Of a stretch of DNA of 64,000 nt, positions 14,514-19,663 are shown in pieces. Location of the stretch: NCBI RefSeq assembly GCF_025384765.1, contig NZ_VHLL01000002.1:62001-126000 (forward strand), read 5' to 3'. Below the pieces are notes generated by a model. It did no database searches and was not told the origin of the DNA. It saw only the letters and a list, made by a program, of their open reading frames with translations. Position numbers and translations under genes: made by a program. The stretch's first letter is position 1; the number at the start of each line of letters is the position of its first letter. This DNA is from Methanoculleus formosensis. GTDB lineage: Archaea > Halobacteriota > Methanomicrobia > Methanomicrobiales > Methanoculleaceae.

Positions 14514-14780
14514 CTACTCGAACCCCTCCACCTCCTCGAAGGTGCTCACCGCGTAGTCGCGCGGCGTCCCGGTCTTCGGGTCGATGTGCACCAGCACAAA
14601 GAGTTCGTGCTCGCCGTTCTCCCAGAGGGCGAGGGCGGGCCTGTCCTCCTTCGCCTGGAACCCGAGCGTCTCGAGGAACTCCCGGACCTCGTCGTAGGTG
14701 GGGTTCGCCGCGAGACTCTCTCTGATCCTGACCATCATGGCCTCCTGTGCGTCCCGGTTGAGGGGTACCTGTTCCGGCAT
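14514..14780 (-). CDS. Small protein of unknown function, paralogue A of a tandem pair
   Basis: An 88-residue soluble protein. An N-terminal helix containing AMMVRIRESL is followed by PTYDEVREFLETLGF and then strands ending in FVLVHIDPKTG. The neighbour at 14866-15150 on the same strand has the same layout (QAMMVEIEEII, then DYTDVREALRSRNF, then FVLLQINLG), so the two arose by duplication. No known domain is recognised. The ATG at 14780 is used because longer in-frame extensions are low-complexity and overlap the space between the pair. Confidence 0.65.
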   Translation of the reverse strand: MPEQVPLNRDAQEAMMVRIRESLAANPTYDEVREFLETLGFQAKEDRPALALWENGEHELFVLVHIDPKTGTPRDYAVSTFEEVEGFE

Positions 14781-14865
14781 ACGCCGACCATACCGTGTAT
14801 GCCGGGATAAACCTGACCCGCGGGGGTGAAGAAGAGTGAGCCTGCCGGCGGGCCCCGGAAAGAGG

Positions 14866-15150
14866 TTATCGGGCGTTGAACCCGGCAGGCCCACCTTCGC
14901 TCTCTTCCAGGTCGGCGTAGGAGGCCACCCGGTAGCCCGCGTACCCGCCCCCGAGGTTTATCTGCAGGAGGACGAAGATCTCGAGTTCGGGCTGCACCCA
15001 TATCGCGATCTTCTCCTCGTCCCGCTCCGGTATGAAGTTGCGCGACCGGAGCGCCTCCCTGACGTCGGTGTAGTCGGGCGTCGCCTGGATGATCTCCTCG
15101 ATCTCCACCATCATGGCCTGCCGCTGCAGGGTCTCGAACTCGCCAAGCAT
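14866..15150 (-). CDS. Small protein of unknown function, paralogue B of a tandem pair
   Basis: A 94-residue protein with the same helix-helix-strand arrangement as the downstream gene at 14514-14780; shared positions include AMMV, the D/E-VRE pair and FVL. The start at 15150 is preceded by a G-rich stretch that could bind the ribosome. About 85 bases separate the two genes, so they may be co-transcribed. It diverges from the HTH-FHA gene. Function unknown. Confidence 0.65.
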   Translation of the reverse strand: MLGEFETLQRQAMMVEIEEIIQATPDYTDVREALRSRNFIPERDEEKIAIWVQPELEIFVLLQINLGGGYAGYRVASYADLEESEGGPAGFNAR

Positions 15151-15316
15151 GCCGCCCCCGAACACCCCCTTCGTATAAAAGATGATCCGGGATACGGCGG
15201 CGCACCGGACTGCGTCAATCGAAGCGTGCCGGCACGATTCGCCGGTCATCGAGGTGCACAACCTTCATCAGAGACCTCGTTAAACCATACAACAACAGAG
15301 CCCCGCACGAGAGCCT

Positions 15317-16114
15317 ATGACCGACGACGACTCAAGGACACTCATCCTCGATACAGACAACGACGACCTGCAGGAACTCTCCGAATACCTGGACGTGCTG
15401 AGCAGCAGCACGCGCTTAAAGATCCTGAAAGCCATCGAACGAAGCCCGAAAGACGTCCGGCAGATATCGGCCGCGATCGAGACGAGTTACGAGAACACGA
15501 AGAAACACCTCGACAAACTGATGAGCATCGGGGTCGTCCGCAAAGAGGCCGGCCTCTCGCGCCCGACCGCAAAGGGAGTCCACCCGGTCTGGAAATACTC
15601 GCTCGTGCCCGGAGGGCTCGAAGCGATCACGCGGAGCCTCGGGCTGTTTGCGAACCTGAAACTGACCCTCACGGACGCCGTGCTCGCGAAGAAACTCGCC
15701 GCCGTCCGGGAGACGTTCGCGGGGGAGTTCTCCGGGCAGCCCCCGGTCGTCATCCTCCTCGGGGGCGCGGAGGACGGCAGGGTCTTTGCGCTCGCCGAGG
15801 AGAGCATCGCCGTAGGTCGGGCGGACCCGGGAGCGCCCGAACGGGCCGGAGAGGCGATCGTCCTCGGCGAGGAGTACGCGGCGGTCACCCGCGTCTCGAA
15901 GCCGCACGCCCGGATCACCCGCCGCCGAGACGGGGTCCGGCTCATCGAGGACTGCGGCAGCACAGGCGGCACCTTCGTGAACGGTACGCCGCTCAAGCCG
16001 GGCACGCGGCGGGAACTTCACGACGGGGACCTCATCGAACTCGCGAAAGGCGCACCGGGAGCAACCCTCGTCTTTGTCGTTCCCGGGGGGGTGCCGGTGC
16101 CGGATGCCGCCTGA
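15317..16114 (+). CDS. Winged-helix regulator with C-terminal FHA domain
   Basis: A 265-residue fusion. Residues about 20-85 form an ArsR-like winged helix (SSSTRLKILKAIERSPKDV, then ENTKKHLDKLMSIGVV), a DNA-binding module. Residues about 155-255 form an FHA domain: GRADPG, the phosphothreonine-contact SKPHAR and NGTPLKPG. FHA domains bind phospho-Thr peptides, so this regulator is a likely partner of the Ser/Thr kinase encoded next, with which it overlaps by 11 bases. The channel gene follows in the same coupled operon. Inference: the kinase modifies a Thr that the FHA domain reads, altering DNA binding. Confidence 0.85.
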   Translation: MTDDDSRTLILDTDNDDLQELSEYLDVLSSSTRLKILKAIERSPKDVRQISAAIETSYENTKKHLDKLMSIGVVRKEAGLSRPTAKGVHPVWKYSLVPGGLEAITRSLGLFANLKLTLTDAVLAKKLAAVRETFAGEFSGQPPVVILLGGAEDGRVFALAEESIAVGRADPGAPERAGEAIVLGEEYAAVTRVSKPHARITRRRDGVRLIEDCGSTGGTFVNGTPLKPGTRRELHDGDLIELAKGAPGATLVFVVPGGVPVPDAA

Positions 16115-17357
16115 CCGGGCCGGGCGGGCGGCCGTCCTGCTCCTCGCCGCCGCGCTGCTCCTCGCAGCCTTCGTCCCCATCGTCTCGGGCGCCGGAGGCC
16201 CGCCCGAACACGCAAACCCTTCCCCCCAGGGGATCGAGTCCGCCGGAAAGAACCCGAACGAGGATAAAAACGCCGGTCCCGATCAGAACAAAGGAAAAGG
16301 TGCTCCGCAAGAGACGCCCTCGCCTGCCGCGACCGCCACGCCCGACGATACCCCGACAGAAGTGACGGCAACCCCGGCCGAGACCGACCCGTTCCCCTGG
16401 CTCGGGGCCGCCCTGGCTCTCGCCCTCCTCGCCGGCGCCGTCGTTATCGGCGCCCGATACCTGAAGCGGCCGGACGGGGGGGAGGCGGAGCCCGCCGCGA
16501 CCGTCCTCCCCGATGCGTACCGGACGGTGCTCTCCCGCCCGGGAGGGTTCCCGCCCGAACTTGCGGAGCGCTACGACCATGTCGCCCTCGTCGGGAGAGG
16601 GGGGCTCGGGCAGGTCTTCTCGGCGGTCAGGCGCGATGACCGTCGAACCGTAGCGGTGAAGATCCCGGCCGCCTACGACGAGGCGACAGGGAAGACCTTC
16701 ATGAAGGAGATGCGGTTCTGGGAAGACCTGGCTCACCCGAACATCGTGGCGGTTCACTCGGTCAACATCCTCCCGGTGCCGTTCGTCGAGATGGAGTATC
16801 TCCCCCGGACGCTGAATGACCTGGAAAAACCCCTCCCGGCGGAGACCGCCGCCCGCATTGCCGCAGGCATCGCTGCGGGGATCGCCTACGCCCACGAAAA
16901 GGGCGTGATCCACCGGGACATCAAGCCGCGGAACATCCTTCTTGACGACGACCTGACGCCGAAGATCACCGACTGGGGGATGAGCACGACGGTGGCGGCG
17001 AGCCGGGACACCACCATCGCCGGGTTCACCCTCACCTACGCGGCCCCGGAACAGATCGCCCCGGAACGGTTCGGCAGGGCCGATGCACGGACGGACATCT
17101 ACCAGCTCGGCGCCGTCTTCTACGAACTGGTGACGGGGAAGCCGCCCTTTGCCCGCGAGAGTCTCGCCGGGCTGGCCGAAGCGGTCATCCGCGAGCAGCC
17201 CGTCCCCCCATCGGAGATCGACCCGGACCTTGCAGGACTCGACCTGATCATCCTCCGGTGCCTCGCAAAAGATCCTGCCGACCGCTACCAATCCGCCGCC
17301 GAACTCCTCGCGGCGATCGAGGCATTGACGGGCGATGCAGGAGTGGAGAAACCGTGA
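16104..17357 (+). CDS. Transmembrane Hanks-type Ser/Thr protein kinase
   Basis: A 417-residue kinase. A signal or membrane helix (residues about 8-30) is followed by a Pro/Thr-rich segment, a second helix (about 97-117) and a C-terminal kinase domain from about 157: glycine loop GRGGLGQV, catalytic Lys186 in VAVKIP, HRDIKPRN with Asp272, and DWG (Asp290) instead of the usual DFG, then YAAPEQ and DIYQLGAVFYELVTGKPPF. The domain order puts the kinase on the C-terminal side of the second helix, presumably cytoplasmic. The start overlaps the end of the FHA gene, and the stop overlaps the start of the channel gene (GTGA). Confidence 0.9.
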   Translation: MPPDRAGRAAVLLLAAALLLAAFVPIVSGAGGPPEHANPSPQGIESAGKNPNEDKNAGPDQNKGKGAPQETPSPAATATPDDTPTEVTATPAETDPFPWLGAALALALLAGAVVIGARYLKRPDGGEAEPAATVLPDAYRTVLSRPGGFPPELAERYDHVALVGRGGLGQVFSAVRRDDRRTVAVKIPAAYDEATGKTFMKEMRFWEDLAHPNIVAVHSVNILPVPFVEMEYLPRTLNDLEKPLPAETAARIAAGIAAGIAYAHEKGVIHRDIKPRNILLDDDLTPKITDWGMSTTVAASRDTTIAGFTLTYAAPEQIAPERFGRADARTDIYQLGAVFYELVTGKPPFARESLAGLAEAVIREQPVPPSEIDPDLAGLDLIILRCLAKDPADRYQSAAELLAAIEALTGDAGVEKP

Positions 17358-18034
17358 AGAGCCTTCTTTCCCGGTATCTCGCCCGCGCCAGGGCGATGCA
17401 GTTCCACTACCTGCTCGCGTCGCTCGTCCTCCTGCTCGCCGTCTACCCTTACGTGATCGCGGGGCCGAGCGGCCCGGTCGCCCTGAAGGTGCTCACGTCC
17501 TTCATCCTGATCACCGGCGTCTACGCCGTGAGCAACCGCCGAAGGCAGGTCGTGATCGCCGGACTCCTCGCGGTGCCCGCCTTCGGCCTCGGCTGGCTCC
17601 ACGTCATCACGGGCGACCCCGCCACCGGCGCCGTCGAGAGCGTCTTCACGCTCCTCTTCTACGCCTTCACCGCGCTTGTCGGCCTCTCGAGAGTGCTCGG
17701 GACACGACGGATCACCACCGACACCATCTACGGCGCGGTCTCCGTCTACCTCCTCATGGGCCTCACCTGGGCGACGGCCTACGATCTCGTCGAGAGCATC
17801 AACCCCGGATCGTTCTCAGCCGGGTCGGGAGGGGGTACGCTCGCCTTTCCTGCGTTCATCTACTTCAGTTTCGTCACCCTTGCGACGCTCGGCTACGGCG
17901 ACATCACGCCGGTCACCGACCAGGCCAGATCGCTCGCCCTGCTCGAGACCGTCAGCGGGACGCTCTACATCGCCGTCCTGATCGCCCGCCTGGTGGCGGC
18001 GGCCGGATGGCGGAACGATGCCGGGAGCGAGTGA
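17354..18034 (+). CDS. Potassium channel pore-domain membrane protein
   Basis: A 226-residue membrane protein translated from a GTG that overlaps the kinase stop by 4 bases. It has about five or six hydrophobic segments; the last two flank a pore loop containing TLGYGDITP, with the K+ selectivity filter G-Y-G at residues 180-182. No cytoplasmic RCK or cyclic-nucleotide domain follows the last helix. The extra N-terminal helices differ from simple two-helix channels. Its position as third gene of the FHA-kinase operon suggests control by phosphorylation, which is inference. Confidence 0.85.
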   Translation: MKSLLSRYLARARAMQFHYLLASLVLLLAVYPYVIAGPSGPVALKVLTSFILITGVYAVSNRRRQVVIAGLLAVPAFGLGWLHVITGDPATGAVESVFTLLFYAFTALVGLSRVLGTRRITTDTIYGAVSVYLLMGLTWATAYDLVESINPGSFSAGSGGGTLAFPAFIYFSFVTLATLGYGDITPVTDQARSLALLETVSGTLYIAVLIARLVAAAGWRNDAGSE

Positions 18035-18087: not shown

Positions 18088-18126
18088 AACTACGAAAAAT
18101 CTCGTAGTTAAAGCAAGATATTTATT
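18088..18126 (+). promoter_or_regulatory. Inverted-repeat operator plus TATA box before the SIMPL gene
   Basis: AACTACGA at 18088-18095 and its exact complement TCGTAGTT at 18102-18109 form an 8-base inverted repeat with a 6-base spacer. A TATA-like GATATTTATT follows at about 18117-18126, some 30 bases before the ATG at 18156. The palindrome sits where the TFB-recognition element would be, fitting a repressor or activator site rather than a terminator. Confidence 0.5.
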
Positions 18127-18893: not shown

Positions 18894-19000
18894 TCACCTC
18901 TACCACCTCTTTTCGTCTGCGAGATCCGGGGCCTCCGAACCCCGGACTGCCCCATCGGAAAGCATAATCCCCTCAGAGGAGAGACCTGGAAGTCTCTCCT

Positions 19001-19663
19001 ATGTTCACGATAACCGAGGTCTACAACAACATCCCCTGCCGGGAGGGGCTCACGGCAGACTGGGGATTTTCCTGCCTGATAGAAGAGGCGGGGCTGCTCT
19101 TTGACACCGGGGCCAAAGGAGACGTGCTCGTATCCAATATGCGGGTGCTCGGCATCGACCCTGCGGCCATCCGGCGCCTCGTCCTCTCCCACGACCACTG
19201 GGACCATATCGGCGGCATCGAAGCGGTTCTTGCCGCGAACCCGGCGGCAGAGGTCTATGTCCACGACGCATTCTCAGAAAAGACGCTCTCGGAGATACGG
19301 AAGTATACCGAGCCGCGGATCGTGACAGAGTGGACGGAGGTCGCGAACGGTATCGCCGTGACCGGGCCGCTCGGGACGGATACCCGGGAGCAGTCGCTCG
19401 TACTATCGACGCCGGGCGGTCACCTGGTCGTCACCGGGTGCGCACACCCCCATATCGGCCGGATCATCGAGCAGGTCTCGGCGGCCGGGCCGGTTCGGGG
19501 CGTCATCGGTGGGCTCCACACCGTCACGGGCGAGGACATCGACGCGCTCGCAGGGGTGGCCTACCTCGGAACATCGCACTGCACCGACCGGATCGGGGAA
19601 CTCGCGGAGCGCTACCCGGGGTCGTTCGTGCCCGGCGGCGTCGGGAAGACGCACCGGTTGTAA
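19001..19663 (+). CDS. MBL-fold protein of the dihydropterin-ribofuranosylaminobenzene-phosphate synthase-like group
   Basis: A 220-residue metallo-beta-lactamase-fold enzyme. It has LLFDTG at the end of the second strand, SHDHWDHIGG as the metal motif (residues about 65-74), CAHPHIG and a final SHCT. This arrangement matches the COG1237 group, whose methanogen member MJ0301 was reported to act in methanopterin synthesis (7,8-dihydropterin-6-methyl-4-(ribofuranosyl)aminobenzene-phosphate synthase). A methanopterin role would fit a methanogen, but the group is broad. Its stop is 7 bases from the convergent MscS gene's stop. Confidence 0.75.
   Translation: MFTITEVYNNIPCREGLTADWGFSCLIEEAGLLFDTGAKGDVLVSNMRVLGIDPAAIRRLVLSHDHWDHIGGIEAVLAANPAAEVYVHDAFSEKTLSEIRKYTEPRIVTEWTEVANGIAVTGPLGTDTREQSLVLSTPGGHLVVTGCAHPHIGRIIEQVSAAGPVRGVIGGLHTVTGEDIDALAGVAYLGTSHCTDRIGELAERYPGSFVPGGVGKTHRL

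Follow-up and report, generated by a model that had tools for sequence, protein, structure and literature searches.

Gene content and domain organization of the locus

We analyzed a 64,000-nucleotide stretch of the Methanoculleus formosensis genome (contig NZ_VHLL01000002.1, positions 62,001 to 126,000; G000:C2:62001-126000 in a host genome of 2.65 Mb), hereafter the window, with a focus on three genes at 15317-18034 that encode a putative phosphothreonine (pThr) signaling system. All three open reading frames (ORFs) lie on the + strand and encode the helix-turn-helix (HTH)-FHA regulator P0001 (15317..16114, 265 amino acids), the membrane Hanks-type Ser/Thr kinase P0002 (16104..17357, 417 amino acids from the ATG at 16104), and the K+-type channel P0003 (17354..18034, 226 amino acids from the GTG at 17354). 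Their coordinates overlap by 11 bases between regulator and kinase (16104..16114) and by 4 bases between kinase and channel (17354..17357), as an earlier note on this DNA had described. Of 20 distinct Methanoculleus trios, 17 show the first overlap (-11) and 16 the second (-4), which is beyond chance; in the remaining trios the BLAST alignment stops short of residue 1 in one or both proteins, so that their starts are uncertain. Low ratios of nonsynonymous to synonymous substitution rates against six relatives (0.15-0.23 for the regulator, 0.16-0.27 for the cytoplasmic part of the kinase, 0.22-0.43 for the channel, and 0.18-0.52 for the kinase ectodomain) indicate that all three genes are maintained under purifying selection. 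Pfam detected no histidine kinase or receiver domain of a two-component system in P0001, P0002, or P0003.

The regulator joins an ArsR-like HTH region (15404..15544, + strand, residues 30-76; Pfam HTH_5/ArsR, E 9.4e-8) to an FHA domain (E 4.7e-13), both above cut-off, which bears out the winged helix-FHA fusion of the earlier note. The FHA domain occupies approximately residues 145-255 (15749..16081, +), as delimited by the Pfam core (191-242) and the strands of the AlphaFold2 model (144-254; whole-protein pLDDT 75.9, pTM 0.53), has the FHA domains of DgcB and GarA as its best Foldseek matches, and contains Arg168, Ser194, and His197. Among 92 unique full-length proteins of the regulator family, Gly167, Arg168, and His197 are each conserved in 92/92, and position 194 is occupied by Ser in 81 and by Thr in 10 (Ser/Thr in 91/92); the predicted pThr-binding pocket is intact except for one residue. 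The assignment of pThr-contacting residues follows in part PMC10470591 and PMC6733907 (here and below, articles are cited for excerpts of their text).

The kinase begins with a hydrophobic stretch that is either a signal peptide or a first transmembrane helix (16128..16184, +, residues 9-27), followed by an outer segment (16188..16391, +, residues 29-96), a transmembrane helix (16398..16454, +, residues 99-117; both hydrophobic elements were called from hydropathy), and the kinase domain (16575..17303, +, residues 158-400; Pkinase, E 9.2e-43). Lys186, Glu202, His270/Asp272, Lys274, Asn277, Asp290/Gly292, and Pro315/Glu316 of the Ala-Pro-Glu motif are each shared by no fewer than 95% of the 78 kinases in our alignment, and P0002 is, on these residues, a Hanks-type Ser/Thr kinase with a complete predicted catalytic set. 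Trp291 turns the DFG motif into DWG (residues 290-292, positions 16971-16979) in 78/78 of these proteins, a variant that CK2 also carries. The nearest solved relative is PknB of Mycobacterium tuberculosis. The PADLOC models PD-T4-6 and MAD6 match P0002 at its generic kinase domain alone, and no defence genes neighbor it in the stretches read; a defence system was rejected.

While the membrane anchor and the kinase fold of the earlier note were recovered, its extracytoplasmic segment proved to be a stub of approximately 70 residues between the two hydrophobic stretches, of low complexity by composition, rich in Pro, Ala, Thr, and Gly, and free of Pfam domains. Neither Pfam nor hydropathy and composition revealed a sensor domain in this segment, which leaves the activation of the kinase by an external cue, as proposed earlier, unsupported by the sequence of this genome. 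Ten scanned relatives carry NosD/β-helix (five) or PEGA (two) ectodomains, or none that was recognised (three). Since the kinase of Methanoculleus sp. FWC-SCC1 (L048) retains a NosD domain, the stub of P0002 may be a reduced ectodomain.

P0003 comprises six hydrophobic helices and a pore helix with the filter TLGYGD (residues 178-183, positions 17885-17902), in agreement with the GYG filter noted before. It scores 49.1 bits against Ion_trans_2 (cut-off 22.5, E 5.5e-13) and is similar to KirBac and KcsA, and the filter is invariant in 21 orthologues; by these features P0003 is a member of the K+ channel pore family. Its AlphaFold2 model (pLDDT 52) was too weak for use.

Distribution of the regulator-kinase pair and of the channel

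In a survey of 61 related genomes, each of the 60 rows for an HTH-FHA gene (two regulator genes are each split over two rows) is followed within 3.5 kb downstream by a kinase match in the same orientation. The regulator occurs in 45 genomes and a kinase match in 48; both are absent from 13, and a kinase match alone is found in three, one of which (G034) has a mere 46-residue match beside the SIMPL gene. In the four cassette-bearing Methanoculleus genomes tested (G000, G003, G019, and G030), a single protein matches FHA, namely P0001 or its orthologue, and a single one matches Pkinase above cut-off, namely P0002 or its orthologue, the other kinase hit in G000 being a Kae1-Bud32 fusion; the cassette-less genomes G014 and G031 have no FHA match, and G014, G031, and G010 have no Pkinase match above cut-off. 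The regulator and the kinase thus constitute a dedicated pair and a real unit. The regulator family is present in 154 of 232 genomes of the class and in 64 of 392 genomes of the phylum, all 64 belonging to the same order, and was found only in this one order of methanogens, Methanomicrobiales. Pairwise distances of regulators and of kinase domains are correlated (Pearson 0.86, 58 pairs); when partners were swapped within multi-pair genomes the mean fell to 0.81, and 33 of 2000 swaps equaled or beat the real pairing, which gives modest support to cognate pairing.

These data bear on the reading that the two genes are merely co-located, with the FHA domain recognizing pThr made by atypical kinases (RIO, Bud32, or ABC1-like) and the Hanks kinase acting on other substrates. 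Bacterial Hanks kinases are usually promiscuous (PMC6213207), which would agree with such a separation; the 60/60 linkage, the joint absence of both genes, and the occurrence of one FHA protein and one Hanks kinase in the M. formosensis genome speak against it, and we consider it highly improbable.

Another 23 kinase rows have no HTH-FHA gene upstream. Some of them lie beside PP2C phosphatase genes and resemble other kinases, and one, in G015, is the pair's own kinase placed on another contig. Related membrane kinases without an HTH-FHA gene were observed at L241 (G016:C56), L242 (G009:C29), L239 (G037), and L240 (G041:C42); clustered by two or three or located beside PP2C genes, they look like other kinase modules of the order. 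A PP2C gene was detected in 54 of the 61 genomes, including genomes that lack the pair, and the phosphatase therefore has other work too. It adjoins the pair in G037, G042, G047, and G057, directly follows the kinase at L059, and in G044 and G059 is found downstream of the regulator at a distance of up to approximately 6 kb; a count with a single reference protein, which undercounts, placed it at 1 of 46 contig loci with the pair. The M. formosensis genome has a single PP2C gene, on another contig.

The channel has a narrower distribution. Orthologues with at least 77% identity were found in 20 of 35 Methanoculleus genomes, where they always come directly after the kinase; six genomes have the pair without a channel match, and none of the nine that lack the pair has the channel (Fisher p 7e-5, phylogeny ignored). 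Thus, when the trio predicted by the earlier note to be a single signaling operon was sought in related genomes, the regulator-kinase pair recurred across the order, and the trio was confined to Methanoculleus, so that the refuting outcome named in that note, a lack of conservation, holds in part. A three-part unit, with regulator and K+ channel both under the control of the kinase, would fit the conserved 11- and 4-base overlaps, the strict co-occurrence of the channel with the pair in this genus, and the genome G014, which lacks all three genes as a block between the same neighbors. It fits poorly with the six of 26 pair-bearing Methanoculleus genomes that have no channel match (G015 is incomplete; at L257 the kinase is followed directly by SIMPL), with the pairs outside Methanoculleus that have no adjoining channel, and with genus g6 of another family (G044 and G059), where a channel of 44-50% identity lies beside the SIMPL and MBL genes and the pair is elsewhere in the genome. 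The cytoplasmic tails of the channel itself are short, and neither Pfam nor hydropathy points to a regulatory domain. Of three linker threonines, Thr121 and Thr124 were rejected as phosphosites of the S4-S5 linker: both also occur in the two distant channels aligned and therefore carry no signal tied to the kinase. At position 122, Thr or Ser is restricted to the 21 orthologues. The proposed action of the kinase on the channel thus found no backing, and we judge a three-part unit unlikely; the channel was rejected as a core member and kept as a genus-level partner, which is likely co-expressed with the pair because the genes overlap.

SIMPL and MBL are the right-hand neighbors of the channel both in the window and in g6, and the right neighborhood of the channel therefore predates its link to the pair. 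The simplest history would be that the pair came to lie ahead of a pre-existing channel gene in the Methanoculleus line. In G014, where the flanking FKBP and SIMPL genes are 100% and 97% identical to those of the window, the junction retains a 24-base stretch resembling the channel 3' end (19/24, a match equaled or exceeded by 1% of 1000 segments drawn at random from the window); together with the 46-residue kinase match in G034, this remnant weakly favors cassette loss over gain.

A candidate phosphothreonine switch and the surroundings of the operon

The regulator has a short tail ahead of its HTH region, in which Thr8 (codon ACA, 15338..15340, +) is the sole invariant residue before Glu20 (42/42 rows of alignment A1). 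This position is Thr in 92/92 proteins of the family, at which the codons ACA (32), ACG (27), ACC (23), and ACT (10) are all used, and the constraint therefore acts on the amino acid. At the surrounding positions 2-7 and 9-11, the commonest residue reaches just 29 to 54 of 92; position +1 after Thr8 is Leu, Ile, or Val in 89/92, and positions +2 and +3 are mostly Val, Ile, or Leu. Such conservation makes Thr8 a plausible phosphosite. Foldseek ranked the FHA domain of DgcB, together with its phosphorylated N-terminal peptide, first among PDB matches to P0001, GarA-PknB third, EmbR 22nd, and phospho-OdhI 29th. Taken together, the tail and the pair suggest, by analogy, a switch like those of GarA, OdhI, and DgcB. 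The likeness is mechanistic only: P0001 scores 14.8 bits against the curated OdhI model NF041660 (cut-off 200), being a non-member, and is also far under the FhaB NCBIfam cut-off.

On the kinase side, the alignment of the 78 proteins points to Thr133 (16500..16502, +), between the transmembrane helix and the kinase domain, as a candidate docking phosphosite. The motif T[VIL][hydrophobic] occurs in 50/78 juxtamembrane segments against a mean of 10.7 and a maximum of 21 in 2000 shuffles, which keep composition and ignore relatedness, so that the excess overstates the number of independent events. This motif, which an FHA domain could bind, also agrees with an EmbR-like docking without any tail switch. 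In that case the FHA domain would only hold the regulator at the autophosphorylated kinase, DNA binding would change through phosphorylation at another site or through detachment from the membrane, and Thr8 would be kept as, for example, an N-terminal DNA arm or helix cap. EmbR is among the Foldseek matches, and its promoter binding is raised by PknH phosphorylation (PMC6213207). Docking alone leaves unexplained a threonine that is invariant in 92/92 proteins within a variable tail predicted to be disordered, and we regard this alternative as rather unlikely.

The best explanation, which we hold to be somewhat more probable than its negation, is a dedicated kinase/transcription-factor pair with a Thr8 tail switch captured by the FHA domain. 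From the domains, linkage, exclusivity, invariant threonine, and catalytic residues observed above, we infer the following steps of phosphorylation, docking, and DNA binding. P0002, with its catalytic domain in the cytoplasm, would autophosphorylate at Thr133 and/or the activation loop and thereby recruit the FHA domain of co-translated P0001; as a precedent, GarA is reportedly recruited through the PknB activation loop (a study cited in PMC2784874). The kinase would next phosphorylate Thr8 in the flexible tail. Phospho-Thr8 would then be captured by an FHA domain, either that of its own subunit or that of the other subunit of the dimer, and this capture might rearrange the winged-helix dimer and switch DNA binding. 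A PP2C phosphatase, encoded beside the pair in some relatives and elsewhere here, could reset the switch, and the channel would be a co-transcribed passenger or output in Methanoculleus, outside the core.

Several observations weigh against this proposal. In 87/92 regulators, Gly217 stands where the SxNG motif normally has its Asn, and the affinity for pThr could therefore differ. The AlphaFold2 model, computed without phosphate, leaves residues 1-13 disordered and undocked (pLDDT < 50), and the hydrophobic residues at +2 and +3 are also compatible with a simple amphipathic start of helix 1. Thr133 is not universal, being Thr in 56/78 kinases. Moreover, we found no operator or regulon, and the Methanoculleus upstream element described below has no match in other genera.

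On a wider scale, most Methanomicrobiales families may possess a Ser/Thr system of their own that parallels two-component systems and consists of one membrane kinase and one gene-linked winged-helix factor, in which a constant pThr-tail switch is combined with swapped ectodomains (NosD β-helix, PEGA, multi-helix, or stub) and to whose transcript a channel was joined in Methanoculleus; we put this forward tentatively and rate it as somewhat short of an even chance.

Upstream of the operon, the element AACCTTCATCA (15260..15270, +) is conserved in 24/25 aligned Methanoculleus upstream regions. It has one exact copy in the window and two in the genome, both just 5' of a gene start, and is probably the core promoter of the operon; as a shared operator of the regulator it was rejected, since its behavior is that of a core promoter and no shared element was seen in other genera. 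The other genomic copy (G000:C2:432579-432589, L291) precedes a small two-gene unit that looks, by eye, like a RelB/RelE-type toxin-antitoxin pair. Downstream, an inverted repeat, AACTACGA-N6-TCGTAGTT at 18088-18109, lies directly before the TATA-like ATATTTATTT and upstream of the SIMPL/DUF541-like gene. Almost every Methanoculleus region upstream of SIMPL has a recognizable and often perfect copy of it, including those of genomes without the pair; as an operator of P0001 it was rejected, because its retention in pair-less genomes assigns it to the SIMPL gene, and it is likely the operator of another regulator. In addition, ARAGORN called a probably spurious tRNA-Arg(TCT) at 18919-19009 (- strand); it overlaps the region where the next gene starts, and no tRNA match in Rfam exceeds the gathering score there. 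Two small genes beside the operon (14514-14894 and 14866-15261, - strand), whose products are alike by eye, are both kept in the cassette-less G014.

Comparison with known phosphothreonine systems

We found no description of this regulator-kinase pair in the open-licence PMC literature, preprints excluded, and it may be described elsewhere. Its elements are already known separately, namely FHA transcription factors under Hanks kinases (EmbR), archaeal FHA regulators (ArnA), and tail-capturing FHA proteins (GarA, OdhI, and DgcB); an order-wide, gene-linked archaeal pair of FHA regulator and kinase with a putative tail switch would be a new combination. The kinase and the transcription factor look mutually dedicated across a methanogen order, and these genomes, with one FHA protein and one Hanks kinase, are small enough for cause and effect to be told apart cleanly. 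Should the tail switch exist, phosphothreonine signals would have a simple path from the membrane to the promoter in Euryarchaeota, a group whose Ser/Thr signaling has been little studied, and a single residue, Thr8, would carry a testable prediction.

The PknH-EmbR system of M. tuberculosis resembles the pair in that a Hanks kinase acts with a transcription factor joining DNA-binding and FHA domains. EmbR-type regulators are built from a SARP/OmpR-like DNA-binding domain, BTAD, and FHA; in P0001, Pfam reports only the HTH_5-like and FHA domains above cut-off. PknH phosphorylates EmbR and changes its promoter binding, and EmbR is an OmpR-like protein (PMC6213207), with its FHA domain at the C-terminus of a larger protein that is the target of several kinases; in contrast, P0001 has an ArsR-like HTH domain, faces the sole above-cut-off kinase of its genome, and carries a conserved threonine in a tail before the HTH region.

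GarA, OdhI, and DgcB each have a phosphorylated N-terminal Thr that is bound by the protein's own FHA domain (PMC6733907 and PMC2784874), with hydrophobic residues at +2 and +3 of the phosphotail (PMC6733907). They share with P0001 the short N-terminal tail with its conserved Thr and hydrophobic +2/+3 positions and an FHA domain on the far side, and are the closest PDB folds. However, as described in these two articles, GarA and OdhI lack a DNA-binding domain and DgcB carries a GGDEF enzyme, whereas P0001 places a winged helix between tail and FHA domain.

Among archaea, ArnA/ArnB and ST0829 of Sulfolobales are kinase-controlled FHA proteins that act on transcription (PMC6509490 and PMC10470591; see also the title of Duan and He, 2011). 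ArnA is a Zn-ribbon and FHA protein, which distinguishes it from P0001.

The actinobacterial PknB/PknA-PstP-FHA clusters likewise keep kinase, PP2C, and FHA genes together, and PknB, as noted, is the nearest solved kinase. PknB has a PASTA ectodomain, whereas the ectodomains of the methanogen kinases are a stub, PEGA, or NosD/β-helix. In Corynebacterium glutamicum, the kinase, PP2C phosphatase, and FHA genes form one cluster, which, as described in the excerpts of PMC2784874, has no HTH-FHA fusion such as that of the methanogen regulator.

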